From Pirellula sp. (GTDB lineage Bacteria; Planctomycetota; Planctomycetia; Pirellulales; PNKZ01), in assembly GCA_013822735.1 (NCBI GenBank), contig PNKZ01000001.1, forward strand, positions 124,001-188,000: a stretch of DNA of 64,000 nucleotides. The letters are read 5' to 3'. Positions 3,354 through 53,703 of this stretch are shown piece by piece. Position numbers and translations under genes: made by a program. Position 1 is the first letter of the stretch, and every line of letters begins with the position of its first letter. The notes beneath the pieces are model-generated. The model was given only the letters and a program-made list of their open reading frames with translations, ran no database searches and was not told the origin of the DNA.

Positions 3354-3367
3354 CTTCTTTGCGGCTC

Positions 3368-3391
3368 GCCGCGCGGCCGCGGCGGCTAAGC
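3368..3391 (-). repeat. REP-like hairpin (GCTTAGCC family)
   Basis: Read on the minus strand: GCTTAGCC, then stem GCCGCG, loop GCCG, stem CGCGGC. It lies between the stop of the PVC cytochrome gene and the 3' end of the convergent cupin gene. A second copy in opposite orientation lies on the other side of the cupin gene (3804-3829). Confidence 0.7.
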
Positions 3392-3803: not shown

Positions 3804-3829
3804 GCTTAGCCGCCGCGTACGCGCGGCGG
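3804..3829 (+). repeat. REP-like hairpin (GCTTAGCC family)
   Basis: GCTTAGCC followed by stem GCCGCG, loop TACG and stem CGCGGC. It lies upstream of the cupin gene, opposite in orientation to the copy at 3368-3391. The loop departs from the NCCA seen in most copies. Confidence 0.7.
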
Positions 3830-40481: not shown

Positions 40482-40506
40482 CGTCGCGTGGCCGCGACGG
40501 CTAAGC
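40482..40506 (-). repeat. REP-like hairpin (GCTTAGCC family)
   Basis: Read on the minus strand: GCTTAGCC, stem GTCGCG, loop GCCA, stem CGCGAC. It lies just upstream of dinG. Confidence 0.8.
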
Positions 40507-40514
40507 ATTCGCTC

Positions 40515-40540
40515 GCTTAGCCCGGGCGGCCACGCCCGGC
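40515..40540 (+). repeat. REP-like hairpin (GCTTAGCC family)
   Basis: GCTTAGCC, stem CCGGGCG, loop GCCA, stem CGCCCGG. With the copy at 40482-40506 it makes a head-to-head inverted pair only 8 bases apart, like a BIME. Confidence 0.8.
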
Positions 40541-43841: not shown

Positions 43842-43976
43842 TTGCTAGTAGCTGGTAGCTAGTTGCTAGAGGAGGCAAAGAGAGGACGAGTGGGAGATGT
43901 TGTGTCCCCTCGTCTCCCAGTTTCCTAGTCTCCCCTCCGGCAACTAGCTACTAGCTGCCGGCTACTAGCTACTCTC
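43839..43976. repeat. Inverted CTAG-rich repeat, copies 2 and 3
   Basis: Left part 43839-43874 (TAGTTGCTAGTAGCTGGTAG and onward) and right part 43935-43976 (CTCCGGCAACTAGCTACTAG and onward) are imperfect reverse complements. The middle contains GAGGACGAG/CTCGTCTCC. A similar CTCCTCGTCTCCCC plus CGGCTACTAGCAACT occurs at 45282-45313, next to the end of the zinc peptidase gene. Confidence 0.65.
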
Positions 43977-43978
43977 CG

Positions 43979-44117
43979 CCGCTAAGCACCTCGGCTGCCC
44001 TGCTGAACGCGGTTACCTAATTAGCGCAGCGTCACGACGCTTTGCAGCGTGCCTACGACGTACGTGCAAGCGGCGGCGTTGAGCACGCCGTGGACCTGCG
44101 CCCTGTCCGCTGTCGGT
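43979..44117 (-). pseudogene. Broken duplicate of the 3' end of the zinc metallopeptidase gene
   Basis: About 139 bases align with 45318-45456, the last ~45 codons of the zinc peptidase gene, at roughly 80% identity with two single-base gaps. On the minus strand one frame gives AQVHGVLNAAACTYVVGTLQ and SVVTLR then stop, against AHVNGVLNAAAWTYVAGTLQ and SVLTLLYYV in the intact gene. There is no start and the frame is broken. It is a direct repeat of the intact 3' end, 1.34 kb away, and the two copies bracket the genes at 44218-45123. Confidence 0.8.
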
Positions 44118-46456: not shown

Positions 46457-47608
46457 ATGAAGCTTGCGCCTCTCCGATTCGTCTCCGCTCTATTGTTCTG
46501 CTCGGCCGTCGCTCTCGGCATCGCCGGTTGTGAGAAAGACGTCGAAGTTTCGCTCCCTTCGGCCGACGCGCCGAAGCCGGCCGACGACAAGCCGCTTACC
46601 GACGCGGAGCTTCAAGCGGCCGTGGATGAGGCGATCGACACGACGGCCAACCGCGTGCTCGACGTCGACGTGAACAACGCCTGGCAAGTGGTGCACGGCA
46701 TCCTCGCCTACGGCAACGACCTGCAACTCACGGTCGACAAGAAGAGCCGCAAGACTTCGGCGCTCCGTTGGCTCTTCGACGGCAACGCCATGAACGGCTG
46801 GACCCTCTACCCGACCGAAAAAGGATTGGGCGCCGAACTCGTGCCGGGCAGTTCCGCCGCGCAGGGGCACGCCGACCAATGGATCGGCTACCTCTCGCAA
46901 TGCGGCGTCGGTCTCGACGACCCGATCATCATCACGGTGAAAGGCGAAAAGCAAACGCACAAGTTCCGCGAGCTGATCGAACAAGCCAAGTGGGACATCG
47001 GCACGGTGCGCCCGCACGGTACGCCGAATCAAGAACTCACCTGGACGCTCATGGCGTTCGCCGAATATTCGTCGCCCGACTACTTGCCGCTCGACGGCAC
47101 TTGGAAGAACCGGCTCGGCGAAGATTGGACCTTCGAACGGATGGTCGACATGGAAGCCGAGGCCGGCATCGTCGGCGCGGCGTGCGGCGGCGCGCACCGT
47201 TTGTATGCTCTGGCCGAAGTGCTCAAGAAATACAAAGCCACGGGCAAGCCGCTCACCGGCGGTTGGGCCAAGGCCGACAAGCTCGTGAACGACTCGATTC
47301 GCGCAGCCCGGGAGTATCAACAACCCGACGGCGGCTTCTCGACCAACAAGTTCCAACGCTCCGGCAGTTCGGCCGATCTCGATGCCCGCATCGACTCCAC
47401 CGGCCACGTGCTGGAAGTGCTCGCCTACGCGCTGCCCGACGAAGAACTGAAGTCGCCGTGGTTCACGCGCGCCGTGACGTTTCTCACCAAGACGATCGAC
47501 GACAGCAAGGCGCTACCGGTCTCCTGCGGCGGCCTCTACCACGGCGCCCACGGCCTAATCATCTACCGCGACCGCCGCTTCGGAAAACCGACCGCCGCCG
47601 CGGAGTGA
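46457..47608 (+). CDS. Lipoprotein of unknown function
   Basis: A 383-residue protein with a lipoprotein signal (LLFCSAVALGIAGC, lipid-modified Cys25), so it should be anchored in a membrane facing the periplasm. The mature part is helical and contains QQPDGGFSTNKF and GTWKNRLGEDWTFERMVD. QPDGGF-type segments recall alpha/alpha toroid proteins such as prenyltransferase-like folds, but no catalytic motif is visible, so this is only a fold guess. The ATG at 46457 is the only one that makes a lipoprotein signal. The RAYT region begins 41 bp after the stop. Confidence 0.65.
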   Translation: MKLAPLRFVSALLFCSAVALGIAGCEKDVEVSLPSADAPKPADDKPLTDAELQAAVDEAIDTTANRVLDVDVNNAWQVVHGILAYGNDLQLTVDKKSRKTSALRWLFDGNAMNGWTLYPTEKGLGAELVPGSSAAQGHADQWIGYLSQCGVGLDDPIIITVKGEKQTHKFRELIEQAKWDIGTVRPHGTPNQELTWTLMAFAEYSSPDYLPLDGTWKNRLGEDWTFERMVDMEAEAGIVGAACGGAHRLYALAEVLKKYKATGKPLTGGWAKADKLVNDSIRAAREYQQPDGGFSTNKFQRSGSSADLDARIDSTGHVLEVLAYALPDEELKSPWFTRAVTFLTKTIDDSKALPVSCGGLYHGAHGLIIYRDRRFGKPTAAAE

Positions 47609-47649
47609 CTTTTGTTTGCCTCGCGATTGGCGCGCGGAATATAACACTC

Positions 47650-47690
47650 GCTTAGCCCGGCCGGCCACGGCCGGCGTTCCCGCGCTAAGC
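47650..47690. repeat. REP-like hairpin with inverted half, upstream of RAYT
   Basis: GCTTAGCC, stem CCGGCCG, loop GCCA, stem CGGCCGG, then GTTCCCGC and an inverted GCTAAGC. It ends 13 bases before the RAYT start codon. Confidence 0.8.
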
Positions 47691-47703
47691 GCCGAACCAG
47701 AAC

Positions 47704-48312
47704 ATGCCGCCGATCATCGCGTACCATGTCGTCTTCTCCGCGTACGGCTTCTGGCTCCCGAACGACCCTCGCGGTTCCGGCTCCGACAAAGTTTGGGCTC
47801 CGAAGCTGCGCCGCTTCGGGCCTGCGACCAAAGTGCCGCATGGTCATTATGTTGCGCGCGTGCCGCACGCCCGCAAGCTGCGGCTTGCCGCGAAAGAGGA
47901 ACTTGCTCGTCCGCCCGTTTTGTTAACGGGCGTGCAAGCGCGCTGCGTCGCTCAAGCCGTGGCAGGTGTTGCCGCGGACTTCGACATCAAGATATTCGCG
48001 GCGGCATTCATGCCGGACCATGCGCACTTGGTCATCGAGCGCGGGCGCCACACGGCCGAAGAGTGGACCGGGTACTTCAAACGGGCCGCTTCGAGGAAAC
48101 TGGTCGTCGACGAACTCCATCCCTTTGCCGCAATCGACGGTCGCCGTCCGACCGTTTGGGGCGCCGGGGGATGGAAAGTTTATCTGCATACGCCGTATGA
48201 GATCGCGCGCACGATCGCTTATGTTGATGGAAATCCCGCACGCTCGAAGTTGCCGAAGCAGCGCTGGCCGTTCGTGACGCCGTATCCGGCGCCGCGTGGC
48301 CGCGGCGGCTAA
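47704..48312 (+). CDS. REP-associated tyrosine transposase (RAYT, IS200-like Y1 domain)
   Basis: A 202-residue protein of the IS200/Y1 transposase superfamily. Residues 7-24 (YHVVFSAYGFWLPNDPRG) match RAYT-type proteins. The HUH metal motif is H106-A-H108 in AAFMPDHAHLVIERG. The C-terminal YVDGNPARSKLP resembles the usual YIxxNPVRAGL segment. The nucleophile tyrosine cannot be fixed by eye; Y124, Y160 and Y173 are candidates. RAYTs are single-copy domesticated transposases that act on REP palindromes in single-stranded DNA. Here REP-like hairpins flank both sides, and the TAA stop lies inside one (GGCTAAGC). No IS terminal sequences or second ORF are present. Confidence 0.85.
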   Translation: MPPIIAYHVVFSAYGFWLPNDPRGSGSDKVWAPKLRRFGPATKVPHGHYVARVPHARKLRLAAKEELARPPVLLTGVQARCVAQAVAGVAADFDIKIFAAAFMPDHAHLVIERGRHTAEEWTGYFKRAASRKLVVDELHPFAAIDGRRPTVWGAGGWKVYLHTPYEIARTIAYVDGNPARSKLPKQRWPFVTPYPAPRGRGG

Positions 48313-48314
48313 GC
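48291..48314 (-). repeat. REP-like hairpin overlapping the RAYT stop codon
   Basis: Read on the minus strand: GCTTAGCC, stem GCCGCG, loop GCCA, stem CGCGGC. The TAA stop of the RAYT gene is within GGCTAAGC. Confidence 0.8.
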
Positions 48315-48346
48315 GACGATAGAACAGTCACGCAAGTTTCCCTCCC

Positions 48347-48371
48347 GCTTAGCCGGGCCGGCCACGGCCCG
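48347..48371 (+). repeat. REP-like hairpin downstream of RAYT
   Basis: GCTTAGCC, stem GGGCCG, loop GCCA, stem CGGCCC. Together with the copy at 48291-48314 it forms an inverted pair immediately after the RAYT gene and before the second PVC cytochrome gene. Confidence 0.8.
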
Positions 48372-48388
48372 TCCCTAGGATTCGCACT

Positions 48389-50980
48389 ATGACGTCCGCT
48401 ACTTTTGTACTCGCGCTAGCGCTGGTCGCCGCCCCGGTTGAGATGCCGCGCGTCGTGGACGACCGTTTGCAGCTGGAGCTCATTCTGCAAGAGCCCGACA
48501 TCGTCACGCCGACCGGGCTGACGATCGACACGCGCGGGCGGATTCTCGTCATCGAGAGCCACACGCATTTTCGGCCCGACGGCTACCAAGGCCCGCCGCA
48601 TGATCGCATCTTGCTGATCGATCCTGCGCAGAAGCCGTACAAACCGACGGTGTTCTTCGAAGGGTCGAAGTACACGATGAGCGTGGCGAAGGCGCCGGAC
48701 GACTCGATCTACGTCGCCACGCGCAGCGAAATTTTCCGCCTGCGCGATCTGAACGGCGACGACAAATGCGACCAGCCGGAGGAACGCACGCCGATCGCGC
48801 ATCTGGAAACCTCGGGCAACTACCCGCACAACGGCCTCTCAGGCTTTGCGTTCGGTCCGTTTCCCGGCAAGAAGGAGCTTCCAGGAATTCGGGACGAAGT
48901 GTACTTCGGCTTCGGCGAGAACCTCGGCGCCGATTACAAGCTTGTCGGCAGTGACGGCAAGTCGCTCGCCGGCGGCGGAGAAGGGGGCAACATCTATGCC
49001 TGCTCGTACGACGGCAAGAACGTGCGCCGCGTCGCCACCGGATTTTGGAATCCGTTTCACGTCACCTTCAATCGCCTCGGCCAACTGTTTACCGTCGACA
49101 ACGATCCCGACTCGCGCCCGCCGTGCCGCTTGATTCATGTCGTCGAAGGGGGCGACTACGGCTACCGCTTCCGCAACGGCCGCAAGGGGACGCACCCGTT
49201 CACGGCCTGGAACGGCGAGCTCCCCGGCACGTTGCCGATGGTCGCAGGCACCGGCGAGGCGCCTTGTGCGGTGATTTGCACCAATATGCTTGAGAATCTC
49301 CTTGGCGATGAACGGGATGAGCCGAAAGATTTACATTCGACGTCGTTCAACGATTTGCTCGTCACGTCGTGGGGCGACCATCGGATCGAACGCTACCGCT
49401 TAAACCAACGAGGTAAGTCGTATGTCGCCGCAATGGAGCCGGTCGTCGTCGGCGGCGAAAATTTTCGTCCGGTAGGGATGGCCGAAGCTCCCGACGGTTC
49501 GATCTATTTCAGCGATTGGGTCGATCGCTCTTATCCGTTGCATGGTAAGGGACGCATTTGGCGATTGAGTAAGAAGCCGCAACTAGTCGAGCGACACAGT
49601 GGAATCGACGTCGTCATCCGCGCAGGCGCATTGACCACGACGACGATTATCGACGTTGCCGAGATTCGCGGTCGACACCGAGCGGAATTCGCCGAGCTCG
49701 CCAAGTCGAAGATTGACGACCCGTTTGCTTGGCAAGCCGCATCGCACGGCCTGACTGAGTTTCTCGTGGACCAACCGGTACTCGACGGAATTTCCGCTAA
49801 AGCGCTTTTAAAGGATTTCGCGCCGGCCGGCGATGCAAATCAAACGATTTGGGCCGCCGTCGGCGCGCGCGATGCCCATGCCGAGAACGCCAAGGTTCTC
49901 GCGCCGCTCTTGCTCGCACATGCCGATCCGCGCGTGCGGTTGCTCGGCGTGGTGTGGGCTGGCGAAGAGGGGATGACCGAGCAGCGCGGAGCGATCGTCG
50001 CGGGGCTCTCGCGGTCCGGCATGTCGCGGCAGTTGTTCGAAGCGTCGCTGGCGGCGCTCGAAATGTTGGATGCGGCCGGCGACCCTGCGAAGGCCGGCGT
50101 CAAACGCGATCCGAAGAAGGAACCGACCGGTGAGCAATACGCGTTGCGGCTGTTGCTCGATGCGAAAGCCGCGCCCGAGGTTCGCACGTTTGCGTTAAAG
50201 GCGCTCCGTCCCGACTGCCCGGAGTTGACGACGGACGCGCTCGTGGAGCTCGCCGGTAAAGCCGAGGCGTCGCTTTCGAAGGAAATCATTCGTACGTTGC
50301 GGGAACGGGCCGACGCGGCGGCGCGAAAGTTTGTGCGTGAAGTCGCCGCTGATGACCAACGCGCCGCGGCGTATCGTACGGAAGCGCTCGCAGGCCTGTC
50401 GCCCGACGACTCCGCCGACCGTAAAGTGCTCGAACAATTGGCGGCGTCCTCCGCCAAATCGTCCGACGGAGAGTTGCAAGCGGCAGCCCGGCGCGTGCTC
50501 GATCCGCCTGCCTTGCGCGAAACATCGTTGCGTGCCGAGGAGATTTCCGCCGGGGGCGATCCTGCCGCCGGCGAGGGGTTGTTCTTCCATCCGCGCGTGG
50601 CCAGTTGCTACCGCTGCCACGAGTACGAAGGGCGCGGAGCCGCGGTCGGGCCGGCGCTCACGACCTTCGGGCGCGGAGCGTCGCGCGAGCGCATCCTGCA
50701 ATCGATTTTGGAGCCGAGCAAAGAAATCGCCCCGCATTACGTGCCGTGGATTCTCACGACCACCGACGGCCGGACGCTCACCGGGCTCTTTATCGGCGAA
50801 GAAGTCGACGGCACGCAGCGCTTTGTCGACGCCCAAGGAAAGCTCTTCAAGCTCCATCCGCGCGAGATCGAATCACGCGAGGCGGCCAAGCAATCGATCA
50901 TGCCTGCCGATTTCGGCCGCACGCTCACGGAAACCGAGCTCCGCGACTTGGCGGCGTTCCTGTTGCAACCGGCGAAGTGA
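48389..50980 (+). CDS. PVC-type cytochrome c / membrane-bound dehydrogenase domain protein
   Basis: An 863-residue exported protein. A short signal peptide (FVLALALVAAPVEMP) is followed by a PVC-type propeller: LELILQEPDIVTPTGLTIDT, HNGLSGFAFGPF, FWNPFHVTFNRLGQLFTVDN, GGDYGYRFRNG. A HEAT-like middle follows, then a cytochrome c domain with heme motif C740-Y-R-C-H744 and the distal segment QSIMPADFGRTLTETELRDL. It is related to the protein at the left edge of the window but lacks its discoidin domain and is shorter. It probably donates electrons from an unknown organic substrate to the periplasmic chain. A TGTAGGGAACGCC palindrome follows 10 bp after the stop. Confidence 0.9.
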   Translation: MTSATFVLALALVAAPVEMPRVVDDRLQLELILQEPDIVTPTGLTIDTRGRILVIESHTHFRPDGYQGPPHDRILLIDPAQKPYKPTVFFEGSKYTMSVAKAPDDSIYVATRSEIFRLRDLNGDDKCDQPEERTPIAHLETSGNYPHNGLSGFAFGPFPGKKELPGIRDEVYFGFGENLGADYKLVGSDGKSLAGGGEGGNIYACSYDGKNVRRVATGFWNPFHVTFNRLGQLFTVDNDPDSRPPCRLIHVVEGGDYGYRFRNGRKGTHPFTAWNGELPGTLPMVAGTGEAPCAVICTNMLENLLGDERDEPKDLHSTSFNDLLVTSWGDHRIERYRLNQRGKSYVAAMEPVVVGGENFRPVGMAEAPDGSIYFSDWVDRSYPLHGKGRIWRLSKKPQLVERHSGIDVVIRAGALTTTTIIDVAEIRGRHRAEFAELAKSKIDDPFAWQAASHGLTEFLVDQPVLDGISAKALLKDFAPAGDANQTIWAAVGARDAHAENAKVLAPLLLAHADPRVRLLGVVWAGEEGMTEQRGAIVAGLSRSGMSRQLFEASLAALEMLDAAGDPAKAGVKRDPKKEPTGEQYALRLLLDAKAAPEVRTFALKALRPDCPELTTDALVELAGKAEASLSKEIIRTLRERADAAARKFVREVAADDQRAAAYRTEALAGLSPDDSADRKVLEQLAASSAKSSDGELQAAARRVLDPPALRETSLRAEEISAGGDPAAGEGLFFHPRVASCYRCHEYEGRGAAVGPALTTFGRGASRERILQSILEPSKEIAPHYVPWILTTTDGRTLTGLFIGEEVDGTQRFVDAQGKLFKLHPREIESREAAKQSIMPADFGRTLTETELRDLAAFLLQPAK

Positions 50981-53603: not shown

Positions 53604-53621
53604 TTGCTTTCGTCGTTTGTT

Positions 53622-53646
53622 GCTTAGCCGCCGCGGCCACGCGGCG
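53622..53646 (+). repeat. REP-like hairpin (GCTTAGCC family)
   Basis: GCTTAGCC, stem GCCGCG, loop GCCA, stem CGCGGC: the same stem as the copy at the RAYT stop codon. Confidence 0.8.
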
Positions 53647-53653
53647 TTGGAAG

Positions 53654-53679
53654 CCGGTCGTGGCCTCTCCGGGCTAAGC
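53654..53679 (-). repeat. REP-like hairpin, imperfect copy
   Basis: Read on the minus strand: GCTTAGCCCGGAG, AGGCCACG, ACCGG. The stem is only partly paired. It forms an inverted pair with 53622-53646 between two convergent genes. Confidence 0.6.
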
Positions 53680-53703
53680 ACGACTTAAGGCTCGTCGCTG
53701 AAC

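Follow-up and report, generated by a model that had tools for sequence, protein, structure and literature searches.

A RAYT with dispersed GCTTAGC-footed hairpins in Pirellula sp.: a new variant of the RAYT/REPIN system

The genome of Pirellula sp. (6.88 Mb in 38 contigs) encodes a REP-associated tyrosine transposase (RAYT) whose gene is flanked by hairpins sharing the unpaired foot GCTTAGC, and enzyme and repeats together represent a new variant of the RAYT/REPIN system. We consider it very probable that the protein recognises a TTAGC foot, preceded by C or T, together with a short hairpin in single-stranded DNA, and that the GCTTAGC hairpins form its target family. A preliminary description had already taken motif plus hairpin to be the REP family served by this RAYT; the number of copies in the genome (at least 86 matches to a covariance model) and an association that recurs across the phylum support that view, with binding and cutting themselves predicted by analogy. 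Coordinates below refer to the window, the whole 64-kb stretch of contig PNKZ01000001.1 (C1) that was analysed, in which we annotate the following features.

47704..48312, plus strand: RAYT gene, 202 amino acids from ATG to TAA, with the HUH motif H106-A-H108 and the presumed catalytic tyrosine Y173
47650..47674, plus strand: REP of arm type A, GCTTAGC + CCGGCCG(GCCA)CGGCCGG, whose stem folds
47684..47690, minus strand: inverted foot GCTTAGC with no REP-type hairpin belonging to it, possibly left over from a second arm
48290..48314, minus strand: REP of arm type B, GCTTAGC + CGCCGCG(GCCA)CGCGGCG, whose foot holds the RAYT stop codon TAA (48310-48312)
48347..48371, plus strand: REP of arm type A, GCTTAGC + CGGGCCG(GCCA)CGGCCCG
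47650..48314, plus strand: unit of A arm, RAYT and inverted B arm, with the arm design of the 53-73 bp A/B REPINs of the genome
38266..38290, minus strand: REP with a type A stem and a TCCA loop
38330..38354, plus strand: REP with a type B stem
40482..40506, minus strand: REP with a type B stem
40515..40539, plus strand: REP with a CCGGGCG stem that resembles type A at the base and is type B by the fifth-base rule
53622..53679, plus strand: REPIN with an intact B arm and a damaged, A-like arm on the minus strand
3367..3391, minus strand: REP singlet with a type B stem
3804..3828, plus strand: REP singlet with a type B stem and the odd loop TACG

As had been read from the DNA before, the gene encodes a 202-residue HUH/Y1 protein with the motif HAH (here PDHAH), and its tyrosine, which lies in YVDGNP, is intact; GFWLPNDPRG stands close to the N-terminus. 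Curated models score the protein below their cut-offs—21.2 bits against 23 for Pfam Y1_Tnp, and 43.3 bits against 80 for NCBIfam REP_Tyr_transpos, whose match covers residues 69-186, with residues 1-68 outside it, and which finds all 30 aligned relatives at E<=1e-3. An AlphaFold2 model built from this 30-row alignment, most members of which were picked up via a peptide pattern, reached a mean pLDDT of 88, and with it Foldseek returned E. coli TnpA-REP bound to a REP hairpin (4er8) as the top match in the PDB (E 1.4e-5), with IS200/IS605 transposases next; the top structures in a sequence-profile search were 2ec2 (6.8e-6) and 4er8 (8.1e-6). Invariant columns of the alignment include H106, H108, Y173, N177, and P178, while W152 and W157, either of which may correspond to the published guide-reading tryptophan, are nearly invariant. 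With the HUH motif and the tyrosine intact, the window protein is thus a RAYT-type HUH enzyme that scores under curated thresholds. One full-length copy exists in the genome, along with a partial match of 28% identity. The family profile gives two distant RAYT relatives there besides the window gene, at C15:126789-127280 (profile E 5e-16) and at C4:89085-89549 (locus L032; 5e-12); the TTAGC foot is absent from the 3.3 kb of the latter locus. A plasmid search with the window protein gave no match.

Hairpins had been reported on both sides of the gene, and all three are present (47650, 48290-48314 on the minus strand, and 48347), each with the foot GCTTAGC, a stem of 6-7 bp, and the loop GCCA. 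The account of the left hairpin needs an addition, namely the extra inverted foot at 47684-47690, and the 44 nt of 47649-47692 fold as one element. That one hairpin contains the TAA stop is accurate, the codon lying inside the minus-strand foot. The loop, proposed as NCCA, is GCCA in each of the three hairpins here, with TCCA, GCCG, and other forms found elsewhere in the genome. Within the window, GCTTAGCC is found 11 times against 1.4 expected, a number reached in none of 100 shuffles; three of the sites (38290, 40506, and 40515) fall within ORFs, of 138 and 332 aa, and the 332-aa ORF overlaps longer ORFs on the opposite strand. The REPIN region (53621-53680) folds with z = -2.67. At 43926-43987, short AGTAGCTAG/CTAGTAGC-rich repeats lie next to a GCTTAGC without a REP-type hairpin.

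In the 6.9 Mb of the genome as a whole, the covariance model R1 found at least 86 matches at E<=1, in agreement with the enrichment of motif plus hairpin that had been anticipated. Genome counts with R1 and with the related models R2 and R3 are lower bounds throughout, with up to 150 candidate stretches scored per genome (up to 32 in the 244-genome comparison below). The bare GCTTAGCC string is uninformative, occurring 179 times against 769 for the reversed control pattern, and a loose 17-base pattern with 2 mismatches performed no better than its control (113 matches vs 174), so hairpin-aware models were used.

The stems of this family change in a compensatory manner while the foot stays constant, as single-strand recognition of foot and shape would predict. 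Among 51 distinct GCTTAGCC sites from the window and from fetched loci of the genome, the latter partly selected with a pattern that includes some of the stem, 46 have 6-7 of 7 stem pairs, one has 5, and four have three or fewer. In the 27 distinct rows with at least 6 pairs, we counted 50 double-change cells compared to 20.6 in shuffles and obtained a covariation score of 0.635 compared to 0.147, neither value being reached in 500 shuffles. Two of five covariation measures (the number of pairs with a double change, and further pair types) were no better than shuffles. Paired stem cells amount to 97.9%, a percentage inflated because rows were chosen for pairing, and drop to 30-61% when the structure is slid.

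REPs also occur in this genome as inverted doublets able to fold, which is the defining feature of REPINs. The fetched loci contain 13 head-to-head pairs of 53-73 bp with exact feet outside, and when arm type is read from base five of the stem (a G in type B), 11 pairs are A/B, two have one damaged arm, and none is A/A or B/B; REP singlets exist as well, so not all copies are in pairs. The RAYT gene itself has an A arm on its left (47650) and an inverted B arm on its right (48314). In the 37 RAYT loci that have foot-hairpins, similarity is 0.96 between hairpins on the same strand (51 pairs) vs 0.85 between those on opposite strands (93 pairs), a difference that none of 2000 strand permutations reached. 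Such unlike arms suggest that a dimer, or two successive events, needs one A and one B. In this they resemble the BIMEs of E. coli with their Y and Z units. Of the 30 loci compared for layout, 14 have the foot-hairpins nearest the RAYT in plus/minus orientation, 7 in minus/plus, 6 in plus/plus, and 3 in minus/minus; the enclosed layout is therefore common, not universal.

Relatives of the window RAYT were gathered by a contig scan with six peptide patterns (one of them YGFWLPND), from which the best 80 of 244 confirmed relatives were kept. Nearly all of these 80 are titled planctomycete, and two from one assembly are titled Vicinamibacteraceae PLA1; the latter (L057 and L106, WYBR01) are clade RAYTs in an assembly titled as an acidobacterium, and the proximity of L057 to L053 of an ‘uncultured planctomycete’ could reflect either mis-titling or transfer. 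YGFWLPND occurs in 80 of the 81 RAYTs used later, a constancy that is partly by construction because the string was a search pattern; among 20 loci recovered by whole-genome profile, three of which repeat scan loci, YG.W and ND.RG occur in 19, with GD in L185. The earlier view of GFWLPNDPRG as typical of RAYTs was too broad: the motif is absent from five other planctomycete Y1 proteins compared and marks one mainly planctomycete RAYT clade, in which the other motifs are mostly [DE]H[VA]H and YVxxNP. One genome (G133) carries four full-length clade RAYTs (L166-L169) with 53-61% mutual identity, and the repeats surrounding them differ from gene to gene.

The foot accompanies this clade. Counted with no prior motif and on both strands, the 6-mers directly 5' of 827 perfect hairpins within 250 bp of the gene (84 loci) are led by TTAGCC (53 times), TTTAGC (45 times), and TTAGCG (35 times), compared to 17, 15, and 4 times for 3146 hairpins beyond 1 kb. 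With hairpins ignored, 47 of 79 loci have a TTTAGC or GCTTAGC foot less than 200 nt from the RAYT on both sides and 56 have one on either side, as against 113 of 2753 distant 200-nt windows; 23 of the 79 loci have no foot within 200 nt. By its sequence, the CTTAGC of the window is a variant of a general TTTAGC foot. Other feet appear at a few loci (GTTAGC in L105 and L118, and GTAGC at a repeated hairpin in L112), and at some further loci feet are followed by less regular stems. Loops vary by locus—CTTG, GCCA, TTT, GCA, and AAC among them—as do stems. Hairpin similarity nonetheless correlates with RAYT identity (Mantel r 0.29, reached by 1 of 5000 permutations) among the 31 of 81 RAYTs that have at least two foot-hairpins, and the hairpins most like those of the window belong to L046, L047, and L059, whose proteins are 49, 49, and 47% identical.

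Counts in whole genomes follow the same association. R2, a generic foot-plus-hairpin model, was applied to the 24 genomes to which 25 hand-chosen loci among the 80 led, and was itself partly built from the tested genomes, 8 of the 13 with foot-hairpins having given rows. Where the RAYT has at least two foot-hairpins, these eight yielded at least 151 (L046), 147 (L047), 84 (L059), 89 (L087), 56 (L090), 38 (L095), 153 (L117), and 26 (L123) matches, and the five that gave no rows at least 28 (L048), 40 (L060), 127 (L089), 0 (L118), and 18 (L054). Where the RAYT has none or one, the counts are at least 14 (L112), 0 (L050), 0 (L053), 16 (L055), 40 (L061 with L093), 4 (L068), 2 (L076), 0 (L078), 1 (L080), 0 (L101), and 0 (L124). 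Thus, 14 or more matches were found in 12 of 13 foot-hairpin RAYT genomes vs 3 of 11 others (Fisher 0.002), and R3, which has the same hairpins with a permuted foot, gave no match in any of the 24. In a phylum sample of 244 genomes at least 90% complete, analysed with thresholds fixed after seeing the lists, 12 encode a clade RAYT at E<=1e-30, and 5 of these 12 have at least 4 R2 matches vs 6 of the 232 others (Fisher 4.6e-5). Four of the seven RAYT genomes with fewer than 4 matches (G133, G143, G162, and G231) have TTTAGC feet beside the RAYT with hairpins outside the R2 model. Three genomes with at least 32 (G128), 25 (G211), and 15 (G204) R2 matches hold only distant Y1 relatives. In the first two, many near-identical ATTTAGCC hairpins (L186-L190 in G128, L191-L195 in G211) occur in a genome with no close clade RAYT; these are either orphan REPs or served by another Y1 protein.

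An association of this kind might also arise if another Y1 enzyme spread or kept the hairpins, the window RAYT being a passenger that settled among REPs. Distant Y1 proteins are indeed at hand, both in the three genomes just named and, at C15 and C4, in the genome of the window itself, and together with G001 and G005, two relatives treated below, those three hold CTTAGC or TTTAGC hairpins with no close clade RAYT nearby or at all. We nevertheless regard this explanation as improbable: the foot is enriched around clade RAYTs in many genomes, the similarity of hairpins tracks that of the RAYTs, the C4 locus is without the foot, and among ten other Y1 loci (2-3.5 kb each) TTTAGC is missing from nine, the tenth (L217) having two.

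In many members of the clade, the gene ends within its presumed target. A stop codon lies exactly inside the foot in 19 of 82 RAYT genes (GTT-TAG-C or GC-TAA-AC and near forms), or in 25 with looser forms, compared to 105 of 10333 stop trinucleotides of distant DNA; L049 and L073, whose frames end early, were left out of this count, and we give no probability for the excess because the RAYT relatives are not independent. Overlap of repeats with transposase genes has been reported earlier (PMC3733652), and the text of that paper on repeat-gene overlap yielded no mention of a foot used as a stop codon.

Comparison with close relatives bears on how the RAYT came to its place. The genes either side of it are 780 bp apart in its own genome, and the same two genes adjoin without a RAYT match in G005, of the same genus (gap ~85 bp; 75 and 69% identity), and in G001, of another genus (~120 bp; 65 and 55%). 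The simplest reading would be that the RAYT arrived at this place in this lineage, although the others may instead have lost it. The downstream gene (48389-50980), which adjoins the upstream one in G005 and G001, encodes a large protein that carries a heme-type CYRCHEY motif in the C-terminal direction.

At E<=1e-3, the window protein found RAYTs in G004 (43% identity) and G005 (44% and 36%), plus weaker ones, and two short pieces (residues 1-41) in G002, with no match in G006, G001, or G003; a family-profile search gave weak matches in G006 (best 1.5e-3) and G003 (1.3e-9) and none in G001. In the tree, the G004 and G005 RAYTs group together (99/87), while the window RAYT stands beside L051, L118, L052, and L091 of other planctomycete assemblies with weak support (91/62), and the better of the two best RAYTs of G005 is flanked by a different hairpin. 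The expectation that relatives without the window RAYT would lack its repeats was borne out in part. R1 matches at E<=1, all lower bounds, are few in G004 (at least 4) and G006 (at least 2), both of the same genus, and in G003 (at least 3) and G002 (0), but G001 has at least 76, contrary to expectation, as in part are the at least 25 of the same-genus G005. In these last two assemblies (G001 75% complete in 730 contigs, G005 92% complete), the repeats have the A/B design and CTTAGC foot of the window genome, so either the repeat family predates the window insertion or the assemblies lack its RAYT. Besides the GCTTAGC family, the G001 and G005 genomes hold another family of repeats, whose foot is TTTAGC (TTTAGCCGCGGGGCTTGCCCCGCG-like; L140, L127, L149; e.g., L140 at 526 and 2863) and whose CTTG-type loop resembles the hairpins next to the G004 and G005 RAYTs.

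Two unlike hairpin arms enclosing a gene, at a place where its neighbours adjoin without it in two relatives, are also what the left and right ends of an autonomous IS200/IS605-type insertion sequence would look like, and the small elements would then be its MITEs. We think this very unlikely. A multi-copy, self-spreading element is not what the genome holds, with its one full gene copy and one partial match at 28% identity, and the four paralogues of G133, 53-61% identical, have different flanking repeats. Both end hairpins of IS200/IS605 elements lie on one strand, whereas the right arm is inverted here, and the IS200 model scores the window protein at 23 bits against a cut-off of 55. A role of the hairpins in ending transcription or in mRNA stability, with no relation to the transposase, is hardly credible: REPs are known to have such effects, and 8 of the 11 GCTTAGCC sites in the window lie outside listed ORFs, several near ORF ends, but no terminator-like T-run follows the hairpins (a single hit in 47560-48450 lies elsewhere, at chance level), the stem varies but the unpaired foot does not, and the linkage to one protein family is phylum-wide.

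Under our preferred reading, in which the RAYT serves these REPs, the enzyme would behave like TnpA-REP and the IS200/IS605 transposases, binding the hairpins in single-stranded DNA and taking the foot as a guide that positions the cut. Y173 would cut, with ends joined through the tyrosine, and REPINs, made up of two different inverted arms A and B with feet outside, would thereby be moved or copied in trans. With an A arm on one side of the RAYT gene and an inverted B arm on the other, the gene unit can be viewed as a large REPIN, and the ~55 bp elements may be gene-less derivatives of it. A near-constant foot with freely varying stems would fit a clade in which guide reading is fixed and hairpin contacts drift with the protein.

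Joining these observations, we tentatively propose, while inclining slightly to doubt about the scheme as a whole, that Planctomycetota may have a third REP tag class. In this scheme, one RAYT clade, recognisable by YGFWLPNDPRGS, would read a TTTAGC foot that stays fixed, stem and loop diversifying along with the protein; what moves would be a REPIN with obligatorily unlike arms; the RAYT gene would lie between the arms, often with a foot-supplied stop, so that gene and target are physically fused; and short REPINs would be gene-less derivatives. With its near-constant foot, varying stems, strand-specific arms, and genes ending in their own target, the clade provides naturally occurring variants with which to work out what in the hairpin determines specificity and to test a derivation of REPINs from the gene unit. 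It adds, moreover, to the REP systems of a phylum in which these are thinly described, with TTTAGC/CTTAGC plus a hairpin as a search handle.

RAYTs, REPs, and REPINs, their co-variation, and planctomycete carriers are already known from the texts of three studies (PMC3116915, PMC3733652, PMC6006769). Features of a RAYT or TnpA-REP found here are an HUH motif and a tyrosine in a Y1 domain, flanking dispersed REPs, and a single gene copy. E. coli TnpA-REP (4er8), the best fold match, is likewise an HUH-Y1 enzyme, in complex with a hairpin that has a tetranucleotide foot at its 5' side; the two proteins are 11% identical over the fold alignment, and the sequence match begins at profile position 64 vs residue 20 of 4er8, so the N-terminal part is longer here. 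TnpA-Y1 class 3, described in 2018 (PMC6006769) with the motifs NHVH and YV[VI][AENY]EQ and the foot CnGA, was considered because of its phylum and N-terminus—going by the text of that study, it shares with the present clade a planctomycete-rich distribution, extended N-terminal conservation, and atypical flanking structures that are possibly many-copy. Membership is ruled out by the motifs, which here are mostly [DE]H[VA]H and YVxxNP (with Y173, N177, and P178 invariant in 30 proteins), and by the foot TTTAGC/CTTAGC.

The GTAG- and CGTC-tagged REPs and the TIRYTs/TIRtrons described by the Di Nocera group in 2013, with R. baltica as a carrier (PMC3733652), share with the present repeats, as far as the text of that paper describes them, stems that are mostly 6-9 bp long, short loops, a dimer spacing of mostly 20-100 bp, and possible overlap with the transposase gene. 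The GTAG superfamily has a GTAG or GYRG foot, whereas the foot is CTTAGC here and TTTAGC in most relatives with a hairpin, and the degenerate forms given in that text (GYAG, GYRG, GTRG, GTMG, GTGG) keep a first G where T stands here. The CGTC superfamily, with its CGTC foot and no linked transposase, does not match either. The strings TTAG and TTTAGC are absent from the main text of the same paper. Judged by its letters, the TTTAGC/CTTAGC foot belongs to neither the GTAG (GYRG) nor the CGTC tags and also differs from the CnGA of class 3, and we found no earlier description of it in the literature searched, although figures and supplements may hold one, above all for R. baltica.

The RAYT/REPIN systems of Pseudomonas, E. 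coli, and others (Bertels and Rainey 2011, PMC3116915) resemble the present one, in the account given in their text, in having a single-copy Y1 gene flanked by REPs, inverted REP pairs, different RAYTs with different REPs, and single REPs that are read as leftovers; the same text raises the open question of how RAYTs persist for long while only REPs multiply. Unlike the systems described there, the one in Pirellula sp. and its relatives combines a (G)TTTAGC/(G)CTTAGC foot with a long conserved N-terminal part, a stop codon often inside the foot, and a mainly planctomycete clade, and we class it as a new variant of the RAYT/REPIN system.
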